Below are positions 3,206 to 31,325 of a stretch of DNA of 49,166 nt, in pieces; position 1 is the stretch's first letter, and the number at the start of each line of letters is the position of its first letter. Under the pieces are notes generated by a model, which searched no databases, was not told where the DNA came from, and was given only the letters and a program-made list of their open reading frames with translations. This DNA is from Candidatus Blackburnbacteria bacterium RIFCSPLOWO2_01_FULL_40_20. GTDB lineage: Bacteria > Patescibacteriota > Microgenomatia > UBA8517 > UBA10165. Position numbers and translations under genes: made by a program. The DNA is taken from the NCBI GenBank assembly GCA_001816475.1, contig MHCC01000024.1:1-49166 (forward strand), written 5' to 3'.

Positions 3206-3209
3206 ACAA

Positions 3210-3310
3210 ATAAATTCGAAATCCTAAATTCGAAATCCGAAATAAATTCCAAATTCAAAAAACAAAAATTCAAAACGTTTCATACTTCGAATTTCGTGCT
3301 TCGAATTTTT
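3210..3310. repeat. AT-rich imperfect palindromic repeat block
   Basis: This block is made of overlapping AAATTCGAAAT / AATTCCAAATTC words on both strands. Similar blocks lie at about 4568-4675, 8311-8390, 14614-14770, 16159-16280, 18459-18595, 19062-19198 and 24293-24400, and one lies inside leuS. It separates the surface-protein gene from its upstream region. Confidence 0.6.
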
Positions 3311-3395
3311 TCGTTTTGGCGCAAATTGGTCTTTGATAGTGAAAATTTTTGGAATCATGTTTTTTGAGGGAGGGAAGTAAACTGCGTCCCGATCA

Positions 3396-3414
3396 ACTCC
3401 GATCGGATCGGAGT
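3396..3414. repeat. Dispersed palindrome, ACTCCGAT-type
   Basis: A perfect 19-bp dyad, ACTCC-GATCGGATC-GGAGT. Variants recur at 4092-4110, 8090-8106, 18489-18507, 19151-19169, 19224-19240 and 45056-45074. Three of those lie inside reading frames. Confidence 0.7.
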
Positions 3415-3435
3415 CAAATCGGGGCTTGCAAAGTG

Positions 3436-3600
3436 TGGTATACTAAACACGCGAACACTGTTCCCGTTTAGCGGGAAGTGTAATCGCGTGGTTTGCGGGT
3501 GGCTTTAAATTACACTGATCAAAGATTTCCCCCCAGATTCCTTTGATTTTTTATTTAAACCACCCGCCTTCGCTTTGCTTCGGCGAGGTACAGCATGCTT
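3436..3600 (+). ncRNA. Possible small structured RNA or attachment-like stem-loop, with an extended -10 box
   Basis: This 400-base gap between two minus-strand genes holds an extended -10 box (TGtGG-TATACT, ending near 3444) on the plus strand. It is followed by a hairpin TTCCCG/CGGGAA (3461-3477) and a long stem GCGGGTGG-CTTTAAAT (3495-3510) pairing with ATTTAAA-CCACCCGC (3553-3567). That stem encloses a third pair, ATCAAAG/CTTTGAT. No convincing reading frame is present. It could be an sRNA, a terminator for the minus-strand gene at 3606, or a recombination site. The nearby recombinase-type domains are suggestive only. Confidence 0.3.
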
Positions 3601-3605
3601 TATAG

Positions 3606-15331: not shown

Positions 15332-15456
15332 TTTTGTCGATACAATTGATGCAATTGACACAAAGGTTGATATACTTTGATACACTTCCCCAAATTTAGC
15401 CTCGATTAGCTGCCAGAGGCAAGCCTCGCCTTCGGCGGGACGTCAGACGTCTAACG
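15332..15456. other. Intergenic region with a GC-rich repeat
   Basis: It contains a TTGACA...TGATAC promoter-like pair on the plus strand with no gene downstream. A GC-rich dispersed repeat (TGCCAGAGGCAAGCCTCGCC) is related to the insertion in the leuS C-terminal part. Confidence 0.4.
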
Positions 15457-15738
15457 CTACGTGCTTTGTTGGTATATGCCGGCTTGAGGTTGGTATTGTC
15501 GAGATTGTTGCGCGAAACGCAACAACTTCAATAATGCTTTCCCCAAGCCAGCTTGGTGCACTTCAGTCACTCTCTCCTTGCTTGAACGCTTCTGGAAAGC
15601 GTTCGTAAAGGTTGGCCAGTAACTTTTCTTTTCTTTCTGCCGTTTTTCTCGCAAGTGAATAACTCGTGCAACGACCAAACCAATAACCAACGAAGTTCCC
15701 ACTGAAACAGCGTCTGCCAGCTTGTAACCCTCGAGCAA
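15457..15738 (-). CDS. Small basic membrane protein
   Basis: 93 residues from a TTG at 15738, the first usable start after an upstream in-frame stop. One hydrophobic helix (about 10-27, VSVGTSLVIGLVVARVI) is followed by a strongly basic cytoplasmic tail (HLREKRQKEKK). It is the third gene of the operon that starts at 16080. The function is unknown. Two alternative frames on the same strand are less plausible because they lack the clean helix/basic-tail pattern. The start is uncertain. Confidence 0.45.
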   Translation of the reverse strand: MLEGYKLADAVSVGTSLVIGLVVARVIHLREKRQKEKKSYWPTFTNAFQKRSSKERVTEVHQAGLGKALLKLLRFAQQSRQYQPQAGIYQQST

Positions 15739-15776
15739 GCAAATGCAGCAGACAAGGAATCCTGCAGGCCAGATTC

Positions 15777-15977
15777 TTAGATCGTGTCCTCAGCTGCAAA
15801 CTTGAATCCGAGCTCTTGAATCATGCTTTCGACATCCACTTTTACTCCCGGATTGGCGTCCAAGTAGCTGGAACACCCGGCGCATTGGTTGATATGCACC
15901 AGCTCTTTTTTGCGTTCTGATGGCCGCCAGTGAAAGTCGAGTGCGCGCATGATAATTGTAGGATGAGCTTGATTCAT
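15777..15977 (-). CDS. Tiny HxxxCxxC protein, anti-sigma-like zinc motif
   Basis: 66 residues from ATG 15977, chosen for the GAAGGAGG ribosome site just upstream. A longer frame to 16049 would overrun the preceding gene. It carries HINQCAGC (H-x3-C-x2-C), the zinc signature seen at the end of zf-HC2/ZAS anti-sigma domains. There is no membrane helix. It is the second gene of the 16080 operon. Two other small proteins nearby (16692-16874 and 16426-16665) carry similar motifs. Confidence 0.6.
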   Translation of the reverse strand: MNQAHPTIIMRALDFHWRPSERKKELVHINQCAGCSSYLDANPGVKVDVESMIQELGFKFAAEDTI

Positions 15978-15987
15978 TTTTCCTCCT

Positions 15988-16080
15988 TCATTGTCGTTTG
16001 CTGAATTGGTTTGAAAACAGTGCAAGCGTAACAGCCACGACCAGAACAAATGCAGCCAACTGAGCGATGGGTTTTTCCAC
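15988..16080 (-). CDS. 30-residue single-helix membrane peptide
   Basis: It starts at GTG 16080 behind a GAGGAG ribosome site; the product is VEKPIAQLAAFVLVVAVTLA followed by a short polar tail. One transmembrane helix fills most of the protein. It is the first gene of an operon with a CCCATAA-associated promoter. The stop codon lies 10 bases from the next ATG. The function is unknown. Confidence 0.6.
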   Translation of the reverse strand: MEKPIAQLAAFVLVVAVTLALFSNQFSKRQ

Positions 16081-16100
16081 TAATTCTCCTCTTATAAATA

Positions 16101-16155
16101 TGTAAAAGTGCTTGGGAATTGTAGCATGAAGAGGAGAGGAGAAGCAAACCCATAA
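16101..16155 (-). promoter_or_regulatory. Regulon promoter and leader motif, operon 16080-15457
   Basis: On the minus strand: TTATGGG (forward CCCATAA at 16149-16155), then TTGCTT (16142-16147), an 18-base spacer and TACAAT (16118-16123). A leader motif GCACTTTTACA lies at 16101-16113. Confidence 0.65.
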
Positions 16156-16285
16156 CAATAATTTTCAATTTACAATTTTCAAATTCCAATGAAGCACCAA
16201 TTCACAAATTCCAAAGAGTTTGAAAATTGGTATTTGGAGCTTCAATGAAAATTGGGATTTGAAAATTGAAAATTAATTATGTTTT

Positions 16286-16352
16286 CCAGCCGGGGAAGAG
16301 ATGTTGTCATCCCGAGCTTAGTCGAAGGACAACGCCATCTTTCCCCAGCCGG
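16286..16352 (-). terminator. Large stem-loop downstream of the small-protein operon
   Basis: An imperfect long stem (CCAGCCGGGGAAGAGATG with CATCTTTCCCCAGCCGG) encloses TTGT/ACAA and a CGAGCTTAGTCGAAGG repeat. It lies just after the end of the minus-strand gene at 16426. Confidence 0.4.
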
Positions 16353-16425
16353 ATTTTGTTGGTACGCTGAGCGTACCTTTTACCACGCTTAGTGTGGTTG
16401 GCTCATTGCCGGTTATAGACTAACA

Positions 16426-16665
16426 CTATGCCCTCCTTGCCCTTGGTCTGATGTCGGCCGTCGAATAATGTCGTATGGGAACGATTGACCTGCCTGTTGC
16501 CTGCGCGCATTCATCGCAAGAGCGCACGTGTGTTTCAGCTTGTCTAAGTTGTGGACGTTCGAACTCTTGCGGTTGGGCAAGAACGTATTGCGCTCGTCTG
16601 CAAGCAGGAGTTCGTGACAGGGTAAAGTCTAACTTTCCCAACCTGCCTTGGTTTTTCACCACCAT
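16426..16665 (-). CDS. Small HxxxCxxC zinc-motif protein
   Basis: 79 residues from ATG 16665, which sits behind GGAAGGGAGG. It contains THVRSCDECAQATG (H-x3-C-x2-C), typical of zf-HC2-type anti-sigma zinc domains, followed by a short basic tail. No membrane helix is seen. It is the second gene after 16692-16874. It could sequester a sigma factor (inference); two sigma genes lie at 36-38 kb. Confidence 0.55.
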   Translation of the reverse strand: MVVKNQGRLGKLDFTLSRTPACRRAQYVLAQPQEFERPQLRQAETHVRSCDECAQATGRSIVPIRHYSTADIRPRARRA

Positions 16666-16691
16666 TACCTCCCTTCCAATGGCCCTTACGT

Positions 16692-16874
16692 TTAGACTCT
16701 GGCTTCTTGGGGAAGTTGCAATGCTTCCTCGATCAGATCCTGGTATAGATCGGGCCTCGCTCGTAACTGATCGGTACATTCCTGGCAGTTGTCCAAAGCG
16801 TGCCGAAGGACTTGAACCTTTCGAGTTGCAGCCAATTGCTTGTATCGCAATGCGTCCCGAAGTTGTTGGTGCAT
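16692..16874 (-). CDS. Small helical protein with HxxxxCxxC motif
   Basis: 60 residues from ATG 16874 behind AAGGAAGG. It is predicted to be helical, with RHALDNCQECTDQLRARP resembling the zinc-binding end of zf-HC2 domains but with four residues between His and the first Cys. It is the first gene of a two-gene operon with a CCCATAA promoter. The function is unknown. Confidence 0.6.
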   Translation of the reverse strand: MHQQLRDALRYKQLAATRKVQVLRHALDNCQECTDQLRARPDLYQDLIEEALQLPQEARV

Positions 16875-16885
16875 CAAACCTTCCT

Positions 16886-16954
16886 TTGTAAATGTGCCAA
16901 CTTTACTAATTGGAATTTTAACACAAAAGGGGAGGAAGAAGCAAAATTATGGGG
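16886..16954 (-). promoter_or_regulatory. Regulon promoter and leader motif, operon 16874-16426
   Basis: CCCATAA (16948-16954), TTGCTT (16939-16944), an 18-base spacer and TAAAAT (16915-16920). The leader motif TTGGCACATTTACAA (16886-16900) ends just before the ribosome site. Confidence 0.75.
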
Positions 16955-17056
16955 CATTTGAAGTTGGTAGAATGTGTGGCGGAACGTCGTACGTTCCTGC
17001 CACGTATGACGTGGCGTCGGAGAGAAAACTTACCCAAGAGTCCCGTAAATTTACGT

Positions 17057-17114
17057 GGCTGGCTTGCTTTGGATTGTCTCGCCGAAAAGGCGGATTTTCC
17101 TCTGCAAGCCAGCC
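17057..17114 (-). terminator. Strong hairpin after the KGG gene
   Basis: A perfect 11-bp stem GGCTGGCTTGC/GCAAGCCAGCC with an inner GCC-GAAAA-GGC hairpin. There is no clear U-run. Confidence 0.5.
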
Positions 17115-17135
17115 TGGCACGTTTTTGTGGTTGGA

Positions 17136-17474
17136 CTAGTTTATCTGGCAGGGACGTCTTGGATGTTTTGGAGCGTCGCCGCCAATCTTGCCAATTCGCC
17201 GGAAGAAATCCGGTCCATGCATTTTCTTGACCAGGTCTCCGCCAGTTTTGCCAATCTGGCGATAGAAGTCCGGTCCGAACTTTGCCTTCACAGCCGCGCC
17301 GCCAGCCTTTCCTATCTTAGAATAGAAATCTGTTCCGTGGCGTACCTTGCCTGCTGCTGCACCACCCTTTTTGCCCATGGCAACGTAGTGCTCCTGGCCG
17401 TATTTTGCTTTGACCGCCTCGCCACCCTTCTTTCCAGCTTCGCTGACAGTCATTTCCTTGTGTGGCTGTGCCAT
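17136..17474 (-). CDS. KGG-repeat (GsiB/Con-10-like) stress protein
   Basis: The start at ATG 17474 (MAQPHKEMTVSEAGKKGGEA) is chosen for the GAAGGAGAAAAGG ribosome site. The 112-residue protein consists of about five copies of a ~20-residue repeat of the form (F/Y)Y-x2-(I/M)GKxGG-x2-VKxK(F/Y)G. This is the hydrophilic KGG motif of GsiB, Con-10 and LEA-like desiccation/stress proteins. No membrane helix is seen. It is the last gene of the operon from 18233, which otherwise encodes two-helix membrane proteins. The presence of a stress protein is the best clue to the operon's role. Confidence 0.85.
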   Translation of the reverse strand: MAQPHKEMTVSEAGKKGGEAVKAKYGQEHYVAMGKKGGAAAGKVRHGTDFYSKIGKAGGAAVKAKFGPDFYRQIGKTGGDLVKKMHGPDFFRRIGKIGGDAPKHPRRPCQIN

Positions 17475-17522
17475 TACCTTTTCTCCTTCGCAAATTCGCG
17501 ACGTGTAAGACAAGTTCCGGGT

Positions 17523-17771
17523 TTACGCCAACGTTTGAGTTTGTACCTCCTGCTCGGGGTTTGGCTGATCCCCTTGTTGCTTGAATTGTTGCTCAAGCTC
17601 GAAGACGGTTTGTCCAGCAAGAGCTGCAATTTCCATCCCGATCGCGAAAATGACAGTTAGGACAGCTATGACAAGTATTGTCCAGAGCACGCTTTCCCTC
17701 CCAACTTGGCCAGGAACCAGTAGCATAATCAAAATGATCGTTGTCAAACTACCGATTCTTACCTGACTCAT
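17523..17771 (-). CDS. Small two-helix membrane protein
   Basis: 82 residues from ATG 17771 behind GAGGAG. There are two hydrophobic helices (about 9-22 and 29-52) and a hydrophilic, Gln-rich C-terminal tail (FELEQQFKQQGDQPNPEQ). It is the third gene of the 18233 operon. I recognise no family. Confidence 0.7.
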   Translation of the reverse strand: MSQVRIGSLTTIILIMLLVPGQVGRESVLWTILVIAVLTVIFAIGMEIAALAGQTVFELEQQFKQQGDQPNPEQEVQTQTLA

Positions 17772-17796
17772 TGTCTCCTCGGTCAGTCTTGGACAC

Positions 17797-18039
17797 TCAG
17801 CTTTTGCCAGTACCCTTTGTGTAACCGTTCAATACTCCAATATGTCCCTCGTCCATGTCGTCGGTTGGGTCAACAGTGTAGACAAACCAGACAATCGTCA
17901 GGATTGCTGCCTCGCCTACAAGGACGACCGGAACAATTTCCCAAAGAACTCGTCCTTGTTGTGCCAGCAAAGAGACCGCGAGCGTAAGGACTAAAGCGAT
18001 GGTCAGAACGACACCAACAAGCTTAGCAACAAAACACAT
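17797..18039 (-). CDS. Small two-helix membrane protein
   Basis: 80 residues from ATG 18039 behind AAAGAGG. There are two transmembrane helices (about 5-27 and 34-54) followed by an acidic tail (DPTDDMDEGHIG). It is the second gene of the 18233 operon, 17 bases after the first. The function is unknown. Confidence 0.7.
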   Translation of the reverse strand: MCFVAKLVGVVLTIALVLTLAVSLLAQQGRVLWEIVPVVLVGEAAILTIVWFVYTVDPTDDMDEGHIGVLNGYTKGTGKS

Positions 18040-18056
18040 GGCGGGTGCCTCTTTCT

Positions 18057-18233
18057 TTACCTTCTTGCTTTTCCCAGAACGATATCAAGGATCAGAGTGG
18101 CAACGACAACGAGAACGATGGAAAGTAGCACGTAGGCGAATCTGCCTTGTATGGTTTCCCACAAGGCAAGTCCTAGCGACGCAATCAGTATTACGAGCAA
18201 GACTGTGTTGAGAAATGTCCAGCGCTGCCTCAT
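18057..18233 (-). CDS. 58-residue two-helix membrane protein
   Basis: From ATG 18233 behind AAGGGAG: MRQRWTFLNTVLLVILIASL, then a short loop, a second helix (YVLLSIVLVVVATLILDIVL) and a basic end (GKARR). It is the first gene of a four-gene operon (18233 to 17136). The promoter and leader motif lie 55-130 bases upstream. The function is unknown. Confidence 0.7.
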   Translation of the reverse strand: MRQRWTFLNTVLLVILIASLGLALWETIQGRFAYVLLSIVLVVVATLILDIVLGKARR

Positions 18234-18287
18234 GGCATGCTCCCTTGGAATAGTAACGCCTATGGCGCTTTACGTTCCTAAATCAGG

Positions 18288-18365
18288 TGTTAATGTGCAA
18301 ATCTCCTTTAAATTAGGATTAGTAAGTATTGTACAACAAGGGAGTGAAAGAAGCAAAATTATGGG
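18288..18365 (-). promoter_or_regulatory. Regulon promoter and leader motif, operon 18233-17136
   Basis: CCCATAA (18359-18365), TTGCTT (18351-18356), a 17-base spacer and TACAAT (18328-18333). The leader motif TTGCACATTAACA lies at 18288-18300. Confidence 0.78.
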
Positions 18366-18488
18366 TCATGCGAAGCATGGCACATGTCAAATTATTAATT
18401 TGTCATAGGGTAGCGGAGCTACCATATGTCAAAAAGCAACTTTTTGTCATGGGCCAAGAAATAATTTTCAATTTTAAATTTTCAATCA

Positions 18489-18507
18489 ACTCCGATCAGA
18501 TCGGAGT
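18489..18507. repeat. Dispersed palindrome, ACTCCGAT-type
   Basis: Perfect dyad ACTCCGATC-A-GATCGGAGT set within an AT-rich repeat block. A sister copy lies at 19151-19169. Confidence 0.75.
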
Positions 18508-18698
18508 CAAATTCCAATTTTTAAAATCCAAAATTCAAAGCTGTTTTGAATTTGGAAATTATTTGGAATTTGGAATTTAGAATTTGGAATTTTTTAATTG
18601 AGAGTTGGGGGTTGGTCTGCATCAAGATTTATCAAATACTCGACATCTTTGTCGATTTTGACATCATCTCTATCAGACCAACCAGCACCCTGGAACGC

Positions 18699-18974
18699 TT
18701 ATCTGGCTATTGCAAGCTCGACAACAACTCTCGGATCAGGACAAAGATGCCATGTTTTGCCGTTGTCGCGGGTCCGCTCGAAAAAGTATTCGATACTTCC
18801 GCCTGCGTCAAGTGGTTGATGCGGATGGTTTACCGGGAATGCTATTTCAAGTTCGTGGTCGGGCTTTGTACCTTTCCAGACCTCTTTCAGCTCGTGCTTA
18901 CGCCAACGGCTACCTTCAGCTTTAGGAATAACCGTGATTGTCGCGAGGTGATAGATCCAGTCGCCCGTTAACAA
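18699..18974 (-). CDS. Small hypothetical soluble protein
   Basis: 91 residues from TTG 18974, preceded by GGAGG at normal spacing. No membrane helix is seen; it has mixed beta-type sequence with several Trp and His residues (NHPHQPLDAGGSIEYFFERT). I recognise no family. It is a single-gene unit with the TTGCACATT leader motif directly before the ribosome site (18986-18994). Its promoter is TACAAT (19016-19021) with a weak CTGAAA -35 and no CCCATAA box. An imperfect TTGGTCTG/CAGACCAA stem follows the stop. Confidence 0.6.
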   Translation of the reverse strand: MLTGDWIYHLATITVIPKAEGSRWRKHELKEVWKGTKPDHELEIAFPVNHPHQPLDAGGSIEYFFERTRDNGKTWHLCPDPRVVVELAIAR

Positions 18975-19150
18975 ACTTTCCTCCGAATGTGCAATTTGGC
19001 TTGGTGCCGGGCATCATTGTAGCAAACTTTGGGAAAAATTTCAGAATGGAGAAGAACAGAAAAAGAATTTTCAATTTTCAATAACCAATTTACAATGAAT
19101 TTTCAATATTATAATTTTCAAACCATTTGGAATTTGTAAATTGAAATTTG

Positions 19151-19169
19151 ACTCCGATCTGATCGGAGT
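19151..19169. repeat. Dispersed palindrome, ACTCCGAT-type
   Basis: Perfect dyad ACTCCGATC-T-GATCGGAGT in an AT-rich block. A weaker TTCCGACTTGGTCGGAA copy lies at 19224-19240. Confidence 0.75.
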
Positions 19170-19283
19170 TGAATGAAAATTGTAAATTGAAAATTAAATT
19201 TGTTGCCGGGGGATAGGGGTTTATTCCGACTTGGTCGGAACTTACCCTTACCCCCGGCGGGAAACTAGCGCGTGTTTGCCAAG

Positions 19284-19505
19284 CTACGGTTGTAGCCGGA
19301 GACTTAGCCAGAGCGAACCCGGGATCAGAAATAGGAGTAGCGCCAGTGCGATACTTGCCGGGTTTACTCCTCCTATCGCAATCATTCCGGCAGCACCGAA
19401 TGCTGTCAGGATGAACAACCTTCGGATTCCAGGTTTTGCTTCTTCATACCTCTGTGCTTTTTCTTCTGGTGTTGCCGGTGGCCTTGGATCGATGTGTGGT
19501 GGCAT
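19284..19505 (-). CDS. Small two-helix membrane protein
   Basis: 73 residues from ATG 19505 behind TTAGGAGG. The N-terminal third is polar and Pro-rich (MPPHIDPRPPATPEEKAQRY). Two close hydrophobic helices follow (about 29-47 and 50-70). It is the last gene of the 20422 operon. The function is unknown. Confidence 0.7.
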   Translation of the reverse strand: MPPHIDPRPPATPEEKAQRYEEAKPGIRRLFILTAFGAAGMIAIGGVNPASIALALLLFLIPGSLWLSLRLQP

Positions 19506-19514
19506 GGCTACCTC

Positions 19515-19619
19515 CTAAGGCCGATCGAGTTGGTTGTAGCTGATGGCGAAAAAGACGACTGTGGCCACGAGCACCCAGATAACCATCAAGATTGGGGCGA
19601 GCGTTTTGATAAGCTCCAC
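19515..19619 (-). CDS. 34-residue single-helix membrane peptide
   Basis: GTG 19619 behind AAGGAGG; the product begins MELIKTLAPILMVIWVLVAT and is almost entirely one helix. A longer in-frame reading to 19730 would overlap the upstream gene and ignore the ribosome site. It is the third gene of the 20422 operon. Confidence 0.6.
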   Translation of the reverse strand: MELIKTLAPILMVIWVLVATVVFFAISYNQLDRP

Positions 19620-19629
19620 GTTTTCCTCC

Positions 19630-20211
19630 TTAGTTGTCGAGCGGTGGGGTAGGCGGCTTGTCAGGGTTTCTTTCGCGAGCTTGCATTCTTGCACGCAGAC
19701 GTCTTTCAACTTCTGCCTCGAATGTGGCATCCTGCCTTTCCTTCATCACGCGGTCGTGATAGATCTGGTACATTCTGCTGGTATTCCGGCGCCCTGCAAT
19801 TGTGAGTCCCAATCGAATGCCAAACCACAGAAAAACTGCGCTTGCAAGGGGCACAAAGACCTTGATATTCCAATCAGGGTCACCGAAATACAGGTATGAA
19901 TATGTCCACCAAACTGGAATGGCGATTGTGCTCCATATGGTCATTAACAGCAAGGCGGTCGCATTGTCTTTATCTTCGTGGTAACGGTTGAGTGTTTGGT
20001 CCTCGTCGTTGTACCGGTGAAGCAGAGGGCTAACCATTATTAGCGTTCCCACGCCAGTTAGCACAAGCACCCAAATCACATACTTATCGGCGACTGCGAT
20101 CAGGTCTGGTATCATTGTTAGCCTGATCAGTGCCAGAACGAAAATCACAGCGTTTGCGACAGTTGCAAGTTGCCACCAACGGTCTCTTAGGGTGTTGACC
20201 AGATTTCTCAT
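19630..20211 (-). CDS. Four-helix membrane protein with charged tail
   Basis: 193 residues from ATG 20211 behind GGAGG. Hydrophobic helices lie at about 14-34, 44-62, 86-105 and 117-137. A long basic/acidic helical tail (EAEVERRLRARMQARERNPD) ends in a Pro-rich terminus. It is the largest protein of the small-protein cluster and may be the core of whatever complex this operon makes. I recognise no family. Confidence 0.7.
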   Translation of the reverse strand: MRNLVNTLRDRWWQLATVANAVIFVLALIRLTMIPDLIAVADKYVIWVLVLTGVGTLIMVSPLLHRYNDEDQTLNRYHEDKDNATALLLMTIWSTIAIPVWWTYSYLYFGDPDWNIKVFVPLASAVFLWFGIRLGLTIAGRRNTSRMYQIYHDRVMKERQDATFEAEVERRLRARMQARERNPDKPPTPPLDN

Positions 20212-20224
20212 GTCTTTCCTCCAG

Positions 20225-20422
20225 TTACGACTTCATTTTTTGGTTGATCTGGCTAACTTCAACGAAGATAGCAAGAAGAACCAGGAAAGAGGCGAGCAAG
20301 AGTGGCATTGTTAGGTTGTTGCCCAGTATTCCTCCTGCAACTACTCCTGACGCAGTAATGGTCAGCAAATGGGACAGTCTTGGCAACCAGCCCTGTTTTA
20401 TTCGTGCAAAGAAGTCACCCAT
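20225..20422 (-). CDS. Small two-helix membrane protein
   Basis: 65 residues from ATG 20422 behind AGGAGG. Two hydrophobic helices lie at about 17-34 and 38-56. It is the first gene of a four-gene operon (20422 to 19284) with very short gaps. The promoter and leader motif lie 40-105 bases upstream. An imperfect GTGCTTTCGAAAGCAC hairpin lies in the leader. The function is unknown. Confidence 0.7.
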   Translation of the reverse strand: MGDFFARIKQGWLPRLSHLLTITASGVVAGGILGNNLTMPLLLASFLVLLAIFVEVSQINQKMKS

Positions 20423-20463
20423 GAGAATCCTCCTGCGCTAGTTTTGTGCTTTCGAAAGCACGC

Positions 20464-20526
20464 TGTAAATGTGCAACTTAACAAACCGAGTGTAGCACCA
20501 ATGGGGCGCGAAGTCAAAGTTATGGG
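20464..20526 (-). promoter_or_regulatory. Regulon promoter and leader motif, operon 20422-19284
   Basis: CCCATAA (20520-20526), TTGACT (20512-20517), a 17-base spacer and TACACT (20489-20494). The leader motif TTGCACATTTACA lies at 20464-20476. Confidence 0.78.
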
Positions 20527-20589
20527 ACACGTAATTTCATATACCCCAGCTTCGCTGGGTTTTGAGACTTTGTGAGAAGATGAGGAATG

Positions 20590-20625
20590 TGACAAACTTT
20601 TATGCACGTGCACAAAAGTTTGTCA
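20590..20625. repeat. Hairpin repeat with TGCACGTGCA core, copy 1
   Basis: TGACAAACTTTT pairs with AAAAGTTTGTCA around a TGCACGTGCA centre. A second copy is at 30918-30953. It lies in the 380-base gap between the 20422 operon and tRNA-Pro, in which I see no gene. Confidence 0.6.
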
Positions 20626-20813
20626 GTTTTGAGTAGTGAGCAAAGTGTCATCCGGAAAAGTGAAAGAAGGGGGACTAAGTTTGTAGTTAGATTGTTAAAA
20701 ATCAATTGACTAACAACCCAATGGTGTGTTTCAATTGTAGCCCATGTTATTCAGAAGAAGTGTTATAAGTCAAGTCTTGAGGCGGATTAAGCATTAGTCT
20801 GTTAAGAAGAATG

Positions 20814-20890: not shown

Positions 20891-20924
20891 CGTCCCCGGC
20901 AGGAGTTGAACCTGCATTTAAGGT
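20891..20924 (-). tRNA. Orphan 3' half of a tRNA
   Basis: Read on the minus strand: ACCTT (positions 39-43), AAAT, T arm GCAGG-TTCAACT-CCTGC, then CGGGGAC and discriminator G. No GTCCCCG acceptor partner lies nearby. A possible 5' anticodon-stem strand AAGGT with loop TTCTTAT and a preceding GAAC lies at 21149-21165, beyond the interrupted tRNA. The two flanks are joined by the 8-bp pair CGAGCCGC/GCGGCTCG (21141-21148 with 20932-20939). It may be a remnant or a second-level interrupted tRNA. Confidence 0.5.
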
Positions 20925-20944
20925 AAAGACGCGAGCCGCTTTTG

Positions 20945-21145
20945 CGCCGCTGGGAGGAATTGAACCTCCAACCTTTCCCATGAGTCTGATGCTGTGCGTC
21001 TCTACCAAGAGTCGAACTTGGATTTAAGGTTTAGGAAACCTCCGTTCTGTCCGTTGAACTATAGAGACAAATACGCATCAGCCTCTCTCCAAAGCTTCGC
21101 TTTGGTGGGAGGACGGGACTGCTCTGTCCGTTGAGCTACAGCGGC
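20945..21145 (-). tRNA. Interrupted tRNA, anticodon loop split by 133 nt containing tRNA-Arg
   Basis: The 5' part (21145-21113) reads acceptor GCCGCTG, TA, D arm GCTC-AACGGACA-GAGC, A26, GTCCC, GT. The 3' part (20979-20945) reads GGGAA, AGGTT, T arm GGAGG-TTCAATT-CCTCC, acceptor CAGCGGC, G73. All segment lengths are canonical, the acceptor stem pairs 7/7 and the anticodon stem 4/5. The interruption 20980-21112 folds as CCTC/GAGG around CCAAAGC-GAA-GCTTTGG, then CTGATGC/GCATCAG around the intact tRNA-Arg. The anticodon cannot be assigned: straight reading from U33 gives CCU. The D loop with GGA suits an Arg isoacceptor. It could be a real intron-bearing tRNA or a tRNA disrupted by insertion. 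Confidence 0.7.
20997..21068 (-). tRNA. tRNA-Arg(CCT), nested inside an interrupted tRNA
   Basis: Complete: acceptor GTCTCTA/TAGAGAC, D arm GTTC-AACGGACA-GAAC, anticodon arm GAGGT-TTCCTAA-ACCTT (anticodon CCT, codon AGG), T arm CCAAG-TTCGACT-CTTGG, discriminator G. It closely follows the standard bacterial tRNA-Arg(CCU) pattern. It lies wholly within the insertion of the flanking tRNA. Confidence 0.93.
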
Positions 21146-21317
21146 TCGATAAGAAACCTTTGTTCTGACTCTTATATTTTACCACAGCGGAACTTACATT
21201 ATTGGATAAAACTCGATAATGGAAATTGATATACTTTTTTAGGGTTTGGGACAGTTTGAAGGAATTGACTTTTTGAAGTTTAAGGGGAAAATCCGATATG
21301 ATCGGAGTAAAAGTGTG

Positions 21318-21805
21318 GGCGCCGGGGCTGTAATCGTCGAGCGAACTCGAGGAGTTACAGGCCCCAGCGCCAGGCGGGAGGGGAGAAACAGAGAGGAGGA
21401 GGTCGGCTGCTGTAACCAAGGTCAGTTCACGGTATGCCGGGATCCAGTCTCGACCCCGAAACCCGACAGGAACCGGTTTTTGCTTACTACCAAACTAGGC
21501 AGCCCAAGTCGGTGACCTGGCGCAAAGACCCAAACACGGGCCTTACCTGTCACGAACATCCGCCCCCACCCCACAAGAAGTGGACAGGTAATATGCGCCC
21601 GTGTTACTCTCGCACCTAAGTCGGTGCGTCATCGAGTTTTTTGCTGCCTCTTAGTCGGCCGTTCGTATCCTCTTGCTTCAGCTCTCATCTCGCCCCAAAA
21701 AGCTTCCAATATTGAAAACCTTTTGCGGGCAAGGTGAGTTTTTCTCTCTCCCTTTTAAAGAACTTGTCGAGAACCTGGAAGCTTATCTCCCAGTTCTCAA
21801 CTCAT
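21318..21805 (-). ncRNA. Large structured RNA of unrecognised class
   Basis: About 490 nt with no credible frame and many compensating helices. They are ACACGGGC/GCCCGTGT (21534-21541, 21597-21604) stacked on TTACCTGTC/GACAGGTAA (21543-21551, 21583-21591); GGCTGC/GCAGCC (21405-21410, 21499-21504); a GCACC/GGTGC hairpin (21611-21628); a GAGAACC.../...GTTCTC hairpin (21769-21798); and a ~25-bp imperfect terminal hairpin 21318-21371 (GGCGC...GCGCC). The strand is inferred from the TTGACA-N17-ACAATA promoter just upstream on the minus strand. I could not find the invariant RNase P P4 words, the tmRNA tRNA-like ends or the SRP tetraloop motif, so no identity is claimed. The plus strand also has a hairpin plus T6 near 21640. 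Confidence 0.55.
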
Positions 21806-21811
21806 AGTGTG

Positions 21812-21840
21812 TATTGTGACACAGAAAGAAAGATTGTCAA
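21812..21840 (-). promoter_or_regulatory. Promoter of the structured RNA
   Basis: TTGACA (21835-21840), a 17-base spacer and ACAATA (21812-21817) on the minus strand. It lies directly after the stop of the PEGA protein gene. Confidence 0.6.
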
Positions 21841-21857: not shown

Positions 21858-23036
21858 CTACTTCAATATCACTGCATACAAATTCGCTAAACTATTACCC
21901 GACCCGAGCTTGGTTAACATAAGAAGCCTTGAGGAGTTTGGGTAGGGAACAGCGTATGGGAAATCATACGGACCATTCCAAATAACTTGTCTGTTTGTCC
22001 CGTCATAATCCATAATTGTAATCTTGTTATTTTCCGCCAGTAACAAATGGTTTGAGGTTGGGAACCAAGCAATAGTTGAAGAGTCTGTTTTGATTTTTTG
22101 GTCGGAAATCAGGAAATTCCGATCCTCTTTGATATCGTACACATAGGTTTGACCATCTTTAATAACTCTCTCTTGTTTTTGAGTTGAGCTACCCGGAAGT
22201 TGAGGAATTAAATTGTCCGGAATAGTCGCGGAGCCCGAGGCGGTATATAGAACCTTGTTGTTATCAGGAGAAAATGTTACATTGTCAGTCTTGTTCTTGA
22301 AGATTTCCTGAAGTTTCTCCGGAAGTCGGGAAAGTGAGGAGTCCATTTTCTTGCTACTTTCCGTTTTCCATTCTGCAAATGTTTTTTCAAGCTTTGCGCC
22401 TTGAATATTAACCAGCTGGTATTGGGGAGTAAAGCCGCCTGAAGGCAAGATATACTTTGCGGTTTGAATAGTTATTAATATTTCCCGAGAATCAGGTGAC
22501 CAAGTCCAACTTGCGTTTGTCGGGTCAAGATTACTAATTCGTCTTGGATCATTTGAAAAACCAATTGGCAAATTTCCAAGCTCCATAACCCAAAGCCCAA
22601 CTTTTTGGCTGTCTTCTGAGGGGATGCCAAACAAAACTTTTGTTCCGTCCGGGGACACAACGGGATTTATTGCTCCATTGAAAGTTACCGCCGAAAGCGA
22701 AGGCGCAATGGGGAAGAGGGCTGCGTCAACTTTGGTTACTTCTTCTTTTTTGACATCTAATCGTTTTTTCCAAGGCATAAAGCCCTCTTTTTTTACTTCA
22801 ACGTCGTAAGTCTCAGGAACAAGAGAGATTGTTGCATTTGTTGCTGATTCAAGAGCCCCATTAACCAAAATTTGGGCACCGTCAGGGCTTGAGGTAACAA
22901 CAAGAAGGCCGGTTGGCTTGATGACGAATTTTTTGGGATCAAACTTGTAGCCTCTGGCAAAAAAAGACATTGCAATCCCGGCAATGGTTATGACAAGGAC
23001 AGTTACAAACAAAGAAAGAATGCGGAGGCGGTTCAT
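21858..23036 (-). CDS. Membrane-anchored PEGA domain and beta-propeller protein
   Basis: 392 residues from ATG 23036 (MNRLRILSLFVTVLVITIAG). The six codons further upstream are rejected because they run through the -10 box itself. A signal/anchor helix (about 5-25) is followed by a PEGA domain (about 40-110: GLLVVTSSPDGAQILVNG ... VPETYDVEVKKEGFMPW). WD40/TolB-type propeller blades follow (SPDGTKVLFGIP, SPDSREILIT, SPDNNKVLYTA, WFPTSNHLLLAE). This suggests an exported envelope protein, possibly glycan-binding. It is divergent from mreB. Confidence 0.82.
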   Translation of the reverse strand: MNRLRILSLFVTVLVITIAGIAMSFFARGYKFDPKKFVIKPTGLLVVTSSPDGAQILVNGALESATNATISLVPETYDVEVKKEGFMPWKKRLDVKKEEVTKVDAALFPIAPSLSAVTFNGAINPVVSPDGTKVLFGIPSEDSQKVGLWVMELGNLPIGFSNDPRRISNLDPTNASWTWSPDSREILITIQTAKYILPSGGFTPQYQLVNIQGAKLEKTFAEWKTESSKKMDSSLSRLPEKLQEIFKNKTDNVTFSPDNNKVLYTASGSATIPDNLIPQLPGSSTQKQERVIKDGQTYVYDIKEDRNFLISDQKIKTDSSTIAWFPTSNHLLLAENNKITIMDYDGTNRQVIWNGPYDFPYAVPYPNSSRLLMLTKLGSGNSLANLYAVILK

Positions 23037-23044
23037 ATGGGTAA

Positions 23045-23050
23045 AGTATA
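23045..23050 (-). promoter_or_regulatory. -10 box of the PEGA gene
   Basis: TGA-TATACT on the minus strand, eight bases before the ATG at 23036, so a near-leaderless transcript is expected. Confidence 0.6.
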
Positions 23051-23285
23051 TCATTAGTTCGGGGTCTCAGAAAACTCAAGGAGTTGGTGGGTCGGAAGAT
23101 CGGTGAGTGAGGGTGTCAGAAGGTCAGCTTTGCCGACTTACCGATATTCTGATTTTCTGGTACACAGATATGTTATACTGCCATTGAAAATCTGCCCAGA
23201 AAAAGTAATCAGTCTAAGTCTAAGTATATATAACTGTATCAAATCAACCTGCCTCTTAGACTTGGTCTTAGACTTGGGCTTTCTC

Positions 23286-27007: not shown

Positions 27008-27805
27008 TACCGGATATAAAGTAAAACTTACTATCTTGTTGGATTGTTAATTATTTTTGACAGGCTAACAAGGTAACAATGTTTATCGCACATTCACAAT
27101 TCTCTTATCTTCAATCCGAGCCTAAAACGGCCCAGAGGAACGTAAGTGTCCAAATGGACTGCGAGGGTGAGGTTGGGGAAAGAGACCAAGACAGAGAAAA
27201 GAGGTAAAAATGTCCTGGCTAGCAGGTGACGCCGACTCGTCTTCCTTTAGAAAATGGGACAAGCCCATTGTTTCCCGTCAAGGGAGAACATGGGCGCAAA
27301 AAATGCGCCACGAAGAATCCTTGTCAACGGTCCTCGTTCAAACGTGGACCGAGTACGACAAGAGAAAGGTGTGTTGTTTAGTGATGGTTGTTCTCGTAAA
27401 GAGAACAAGATTCGCTCTCGTTCTCGTCGAGAGGGAATTAGGATCGAGCGAAGTAAAAATCGTTCGATCTCATTCAGGCCGGGATGTGGATCATATGATC
27501 GAAGTGGGTACGGGAGTTGTTCCGACCCATGATGATGTTGATGAATCTACTTCCGAGGAAATGCTCGTTATAGAAGAGCTTAGGTCGAAAGGCCAGCTAA
27601 GCTACTAACGGCTACTCGGTTGGGTCCAGCGTGGCAAGACTTTGTGCCGAAGGGTGCGGGGGAATGACGCCAACGCGCGTCTACTTCTTGCTAATACGAG
27701 CGATCTTGTCTTGGAAATCCGCCAGCCGGCGGACTCCGGGAGGATGAATGTCTATCACGCTTAGTGTGAGAAACAAGATTCCTTCCGGAGCAACGAGTAT
27801 TAAAA
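27008..27805 (+). ncRNA. Hairpin-dense transcript of about 800 nt (structured RNA or highly structured mRNA)
   Basis: Successive helices are visible: CTTGTTGG/CTAACAAG (27034, 27064), GTCC-AAAT-GGAC (27147), CCCATTGTT...AACATGGG (27263-27293), GGCGCA/TGCGCC (27292-27308), CTTGTC/GACAAG enclosing GGTCC/GGACC (27319-27361), TTGTTCTC/GAGAACAA (27387-27407), CTCTCG/CGAGAG (27414-27432), GATCGAGCGA/TCGTTCGATC (27441-27468), and GGGT-CGGGA/TTCCG-ACCC (27504-27527). A multibranch domain at 27690-27800 has TAATAC/GTATTA, ATCTTGT/ACAAGAT, CTCCGG/CCGGAG, TCCGCC/GGCGGA and a CACGC/GTGTG hairpin. Many are local, perfect and tightly packed, which is unusual for coding DNA. It does not match any class I know; large ornate RNAs such as GOLLD or ROOL are worth testing. 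Confidence 0.55.
27210..27608 (+). CDS. Possible protein within the hairpin-dense locus
   Basis: 132 residues from ATG 27210, preceded by AAGAGG at good spacing. A 42-codon frame (27079-27207) ends just before it, and a third short frame starts at GTG 27144 behind AGAGGA. The protein resembles no family I know and has an odd composition; its C-terminal third is acidic (VPTHDDVDESTSEEMLVIEE). The same stretch is covered by strong hairpins. I therefore give both readings: a real regulon-encoded protein with a structured message, or a chance frame in a non-coding RNA. Confidence 0.3.
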   Translation: MSWLAGDADSSSFRKWDKPIVSRQGRTWAQKMRHEESLSTVLVQTWTEYDKRKVCCLVMVVLVKRTRFALVLVERELGSSEVKIVRSHSGRDVDHMIEVGTGVVPTHDDVDESTSEEMLVIEELRSKGQLSY

Positions 27806-30780: not shown

Positions 30781-31090
30781 AGAACGCGCTCTCTTTTTAT
30801 GCTTATGAAAGAAGACCCCGCTTAATGGGGATGAATCCAAACTAGCTCGAAACTCGCCTAGGACGAGGATACCACGCTTTATGTGGTAGTTCATTACCTA
30901 ATCAACAATGATTTGACTGACCAACTTTTAAGCACGTGCATTATAGTTGGTCACTATTAGTTTTGACTTAAGTTGGTTAAGTTGGATTGGGGTGTTTGAT
31001 TTTTTTGCAAAAAAATATTTTAGCAATAGATATTTTAATAATTTGAAGAGACGAAAAGTACCGAGTCATACTCGGCTGCCACATAAGACA
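30781..31090. other. Intergenic region with hairpins, no gene seen
   Basis: After the propeller gene come CCCCGC-TTAAT-GGGG-type and ACCACGCTTTATGTGGT hairpins. The ACCACGCTTTATGTGGT hairpin has relatives at 16380 and 27753. The second copy of the TGCACGTGCA hairpin (30918-30953) and an AT-rich tract follow. Confidence 0.5.
30918..30953. repeat. Hairpin repeat with GCACGTGCA core, copy 2
   Basis: TGACCAACTTTT...AGTTGGTCA around AGCACGTGCAT. The core and both arms resemble the copy at 20590-20625, with paired changes in the arms (A-T to C-G). Confidence 0.6.
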
Positions 31091-31092
31091 TA

Positions 31093-31136
31093 GTGCCGGT
31101 TGGGTTTCGCCAAAGGCGAATTTGCCCAACCGGCAC
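31093..31136 (-). terminator. Long perfect hairpin after the small-protein operon
   Basis: GTGCCGGTTGGG/CCCAACCGGCAC with an inner TTCGCC-AAA-GGCGAA hairpin. It lies downstream of the minus-strand genes at 31203. It has no strong U-run, so it could also be an RNA-stability element. Confidence 0.5.
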
Positions 31137-31202
31137 TTAAGTTTCGTATTTGCTGCCTCGCCTTGAATTTTGGACGCGTGTCCAAATAAGCGAAGAAGCA
31201 AA

Positions 31203-31325
31203 CTAGTTTCGATTCTGCTCTTGTTTGGGGAGGACTACCCCAAATAGATAGAGGGTTGGTAGCGCAACTGCGATTACCAAGAAGGTGACCAGTGGCCAGT
31301 GGTCAGATGCTTTGTTTGTCGACAT
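31203..31325 (-). CDS. 40-residue single-helix membrane peptide
   Basis: ATG 31325 behind CGGAG; the product begins MSTNKASDHWPLVTFLVIAV, with one helix and a polar end (LPKQEQNRN). It starts inside the end of the upstream gene (31303-31533), so translation may be coupled. A longer frame to 31418 lacks a ribosome site. Confidence 0.5.
   Translation of the reverse strand: MSTNKASDHWPLVTFLVIAVALPTLYLFGVVLPKQEQNRN

Follow-up and report, generated by a model that had tools for sequence, protein, structure and literature searches.

A hairpin-rich stretch in the slot upstream of tRNA-Arg(CCU) as a candidate orphan RNA

The window analysed here, a whole stretch of 49,166 nucleotides, carries on its minus strand a hairpin-rich region of about 500 bases, running from 21806 to about 21288, beside tRNA genes. 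It starts next to a promoter-like site and occupies a slot that is nearly empty or otherwise filled in relatives; no homolog was found in the genomes of its order, class and phylum that were searched, and it matches no Rfam or Pfam family. The reading that we favour, with about even confidence, is that an insert rich in hairpins and specific to this lineage occupies a tRNA-Arg insertion hotspot and is probably transcribed on the minus strand, yielding an orphan accessory RNA. Little work has been done on the non-coding RNAs of this lineage, to which the candidate, if transcribed, would add an orphan. The genome holding the locus amounts to 958 kb in 27 contigs; among named relatives, the TolB-like protein places it nearest to Candidatus Woesebacteria and related Microgenomates.

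Local hairpins and promoter-like site

The GC content of the candidate is 0.54, against about 0.41 in its flanks, and long GC-rich intergenic regions are what non-coding RNA discovery pipelines select, according to the description of DIMPL (PMC8723152). No Pfam match was found in the tested reading frames of the candidate. Its parts are listed in Table 1. The helices are better supported on the minus strand, which is also that of the tRNAs, in agreement with the initial annotation; the stacked 8- and 9-bp helices and the terminal hairpin proposed there were all recovered on this strand, with pair probabilities above 0.9. Two further, less certain hairpins are predicted between the stack and the terminal hairpin.

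Table 1. Features of the locus, in window coordinates
Feature	Position	Strand	Remarks
Upstream TolB-like gene (PEGA/WD40-like protein)	21858..23054	-	conserved, defines the slot
Promoter-like site TTGACA-16-CACAAT, TG extended -10	21813..21840	-	begins right after the TolB-like stop codon
5' hairpin	21766..21801	-	9+6 bp, one bulge; pair probability 0.94-0.95
Long hairpin, ~24 bp	21684..21738	-	4+7+13 bp, several G-U pairs in minus sense; pair probability 0.98-1.00
Proposed closing helix of multibranched body	21385..21679	-	6+6 bp, 21679-21668/21397-21385; long-range stability not above shuffles
Small hairpin	21628-21611	-	inside multibranched body; predicted fold
Stacked 9-bp and 8-bp helices with apical 7-bp hairpin	21533..21605	-	9 bp: 21605-21597/21541-21533; 8 bp: 21591-21584/21550-21543; pair probability 0.92-0.93
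3' terminal hairpin, ~21 bp	21318..21371	-	11+5+5 bp, small interruptions; pair probability 0.95-0.99
Possible weak intrinsic terminator TCCGAT-CAT-ATCGGA-TTTT	21288..21306	-	only four T
Outer tRNA-Arg remnant	5' piece 21171-21153, 3' half 20924-20891	-	
Middle tRNA-Arg copy	21145-21110 and 20979-20946	-	split in anticodon loop
Intact tRNA-Arg(CCU), downstream	20997..21068	-	within the nest of interrupted tRNA-Arg copies

The initial annotation also credited the element with its own TTGACA promoter. Such a site is present, at the 5' edge of the candidate, where it abuts the 5' hairpin, and thus lies outside the interval 21318-21805 to which it had been attributed. Only 12 sites score at least 10/12 on both strands of the whole 49-kb window, and the chance of having one at the right place and on the right strand is about 1%, a post hoc figure; the -10 box is weak (4/6). 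In the RNase P RNA gene of this genome, by comparison, the promoter reads TTGACT...TATAAT and the terminator is a clean hairpin-T6.

A short palindrome of the ACTCCGATC...GATCGGAGT type is found in several spacers of the window (3395-3415, 18489-18507, about 19151-19170 and 21292-21306), the last of these copies bordering the candidate on its 3' side.

Folding statistics

Folding z-scores were measured against dinucleotide shuffles. On the minus strand the candidate reached -7.2 (511 nt) and -6.4 (519 nt), and on the plus strand -4.3 and -4.8; the difference between -6.4 and -4.8 favours a minus-strand RNA. The excess stability resides entirely in pairs spanning at most 80 nt (z -7.8), while long-range pairing is ordinary (z +0.25; the RNase P RNA and the tmRNA each have -1.8). 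Because its long-range stability is no better than that of shuffles, the multibranched body is a prediction without statistical support. The earlier proposal of a real structured RNA therefore stands in part: the helices do beat shuffles, but the single-body fold finds no such backing, and other spacers show an equal or larger excess.

Indeed, upon tiling of the window, several non-coding tiles were found at z -5 to -8, and at least five other spacers fold equally well: 3206-3605, 16000-16500, 18300-18800, 27180-27660 and 30839-31260, whose z-scores lie between -6 and -12 on one strand or both (-12.2 for 30839-31209 minus, -8.7 for 27212-27640 plus, about -8 for 3206-3605 plus). Four coding segments gave z-scores near zero. 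The whole-fold z was only about -1 for the RNase P RNA of this genome and about -5.4 for its tmRNA. Several spacers without signs of a gene are thus as stable as the tmRNA or more so, and the general lesson is that, in this genome, folding z-scores alone mislead; these equally strong folds count against our favoured reading. The GC content of the compared spacers, 0.37-0.50, is below that of the candidate. A strand-symmetric count of the wobbles in the hairpins gives, in the minus sense, 8 G-U versus 2 A-C (one-sided binomial p about 0.05), a marginal excess that may faintly suggest a constraint on pairing in a minus-strand RNA, and one that carries little weight because another spacer has a similar bias.

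Two of these spacers are worth describing in their own right. The 30839-31260 spacer (minus strand) has z of about -12 on the minus and -5 to -6 on the plus strand, with a predicted long-range closing helix; among 57 genomes it has short matches only and no full-length homolog, and one of its palindromes is also present on another contig (C18). The 27180-27660 spacer (plus strand) is long and hairpin-rich, with z of about -7 to -9 and no Rfam match. In addition, palindromes resembling each other lie in two spacers, at 20588-20625 and 30918-30953; both are built around GCACGTGC, with TGAC...AAC / GTT...GTCA on its flanks.

Homolog searches and the tRNA-Arg slot

At gathering thresholds, the Rfam scan of the window returned two tRNAs only. 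Around the locus, with E-values up to 10, there was only noise besides the tRNAs, and no family matched the candidate, which is consistent with its having been left unassigned: the models of RNase P RNA (RF00010/RF00011), tmRNA (RF00023) and bacterial SRP RNA (RF00169) had no match in the locus, nor did those of ROOL, GOLLD and OLE in the candidate at E≤10. The initial suggestion of a very divergent RNase P RNA or tmRNA is effectively refuted, since both RNAs were found elsewhere in the genome, on contigs C8 (78.6 bits, E 1.4e-24, under the curated cut-off) and C1 (144 bits), respectively. Small SRP RNA was not detected by RF00169 anywhere in this genome, and it likewise escaped detection in 16 of 17 relatives, including genomes in a single contig; this absence does not point to the candidate, because those 16 relatives lack the locus as well. 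For these 17 of 18 genomes of the order, either the SRP RNA is very divergent or the model is limited.

BLAST comparisons of the candidate found no homolog in 57 relatives (the same 57 that make up the order sample), nor in 374 genomes of the class and 380 of the phylum, all of them overlapping samples. The best pieces were scattered, 16-33 nt long and chance-like, two of them at edges outside the structured part. As a control, the same method recovered the RNase P RNA of this genome in 17 of 17 relatives, several as weak partial matches. Dispersed copies of the candidate hairpins were absent from the genome itself, and phage and plasmid collections contained nothing significant. Six scans of viral contigs with 16-18-mers gave no supported match: the loci of the first four scans were without a supporting second match, and the last two gave none and one locus. 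A covariance model built from a single 107-nt domain, i.e. the 9+8-bp stack and the hairpin 21628-21611, found nothing in the 56 other order members, and only itself in the 57 genomes. One 14-bit match to the model, beside the tRNA-Arg of a relative (G002), looked on inspection like unrelated GC-rich palindromes.

With no homolog found, covariation cannot be counted and a new RNA class cannot be shown. Conservation of the helices had been set beforehand as a test of the initial annotation, and the searched genomes showed none; for this reason the present sequence data do not sustain a new class, though they do not disprove it for relatives closer than those searched. That the locus represents a new class of accessory RNA of about 500 nt, carried by mobile DNA inserting beside tRNA-Arg(CCU) genes of Microgenomates and so far seen in a single genome, appears to us rather unlikely.

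A widespread gene order consists of the TolB-like gene, tRNA-Arg(CCU), tRNA-Pro(CGG), NDK and an M16 peptidase. In many members of the order, the TolB-like gene and tRNA-Arg are separated by roughly 20-130 bp (30 bp in G001). Elsewhere this slot contains reading frames whose families were assigned by eye: G055 has a GIY-YIG-like frame next to an incomplete tRNA copy, G042 a LAGLIDADG-like one and G005 a four-helix-bundle-like one. Here it is filled by about 0.6 kb containing the candidate, and no direct repeat of at least 12 nt flanking the insert was found. The simplest reading of these sequences would be a gain in this lineage; rapid sequence change in an older element is a possible alternative. 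Its varied filling among relatives makes the tRNA-Arg(CCU) slot useful for tracking mobile DNA in Woesebacteria. The initial annotation took the position of the candidate as a hint of a role in RNA processing; such a role finds no support beyond that position, which is in a hotspot where relatives carry unrelated inserts. Nor is the candidate a housekeeping RNA.

Downstream of the slot, three tRNA-Arg(CCU) layers are nested on the minus strand (20891-21171). A comparable tRNA-in-tRNA arrangement, with a shared TTATCGAG junction, is found in G003. Farther on, short orphan reading frames, most of them on the minus strand, take up about 5.5 kb from NDK to tRNA-Pro (15332-20810); those tested had no Pfam match, and most relatives in which both genes could be seen have a much shorter NDK-tRNA-Pro gap.

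Our favoured reading can be put as follows. An insert of about 0.6 kb would have entered the TolB-like/tRNA-Arg(CCU) slot, an insertion hotspot in Woesebacteria, and its own promoter would probably drive minus-strand transcription from about 21806, giving an orphan RNA of about 500 nt, i.e. a chain of strong local hairpins. The role that we infer as most likely is that of an accessory RNA brought by, or born from, mobile DNA around the tRNA-Arg gene, in which the hairpins would provide RNA stability and partial termination ahead of the tRNA promoter.

Alternative readings and known systems

The main rival of the orphan accessory RNA is that the region is only a hairpin-rich spacer, composed of palindromic filler and decayed repeats such as occur throughout the intergenic DNA of this genome and without an RNA gene, the promoter-like site being due to chance or serving read-through. 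We regard this as a serious, if lesser, possibility. Five other spacers reach z of -6 to -12 where coding segments stay near zero, the fold excess of the candidate is local only, and the spacer at 30.8 kb, which likewise has no covering homolog in 57 genomes, shares a palindrome with contig C18. The 4/6 match of the -10 box, the four-T terminator and the lack of a flanking repeat of at least 12 nt also count against an RNA gene or a mobile insert. On the other hand, a mere spacer does not account well for a GC content of 0.54, above that of all compared spacers, for a promoter-like site placed exactly at the 5' edge, or for hairpins that have no dispersed copies in their own genome.

The remaining readings would make the candidate part of something already known. 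It could be the 5' leader of a tRNA-Arg/tRNA-Pro transcript, helping to process or regulate the nested tRNA locus, as its location directly upstream on the same strand and the weakness of the proposed terminator would allow; this is improbable, because the tRNA cluster has an extended -10 of its own (TGTGGTAAAAT, 21186-21176), a similar one preceding a tRNA in G005, which is without the candidate, and because the nested tRNAs of G003 exist without the element. More improbable still is that the candidate belongs, as a divergent form, to ROOL or GOLLD, the large ornate RNAs associated with tRNAs, which it resembles in size and in position beside tRNAs (PMC12286853): it has no match to them at E≤10, no similarity in phages, no supported match in viral contigs and no recognised phage genes alongside, and its multibranched body is not above chance. 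As for a housekeeping RNA (RNase P, tmRNA or SRP) that has diverged strongly, the undetected SRP RNA speaks for it, but the RNase P RNA and tmRNA of this genome have their own genes, SRP RNA escapes detection in 16 of 17 relatives too, and RNase P RNA was recovered in all tested relatives, the candidate locus in none; we consider its probability negligible.

Among known systems, ROOL and GOLLD form homo-oligomeric RNA cages. The candidate shares with them a length of several hundred nucleotides, a richness in hairpins, a location beside tRNA genes and the absence of a protein product; it differs in that Rfam gives no match even with E-values of 10, no phage context was recognised, and neither homologs nor a supported long-range architecture were found. 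The candidate also resembles the orphan structured non-coding RNA candidates of DIMPL-type screens, being a long spacer, rich in GC, that has stable hairpins and a promoter-like site. Those classes, however, are defined by covariation between homologous sequences, and no homolog was found here. Finally, the candidate differs from the bacterial group I introns of tRNA-Arg(CCU) in lying outside the tRNA genes and in matching no Rfam intron family above noise, whereas the neighbouring tRNA-Arg(CCU) copies share with these introns an interruption in the anticodon loop.
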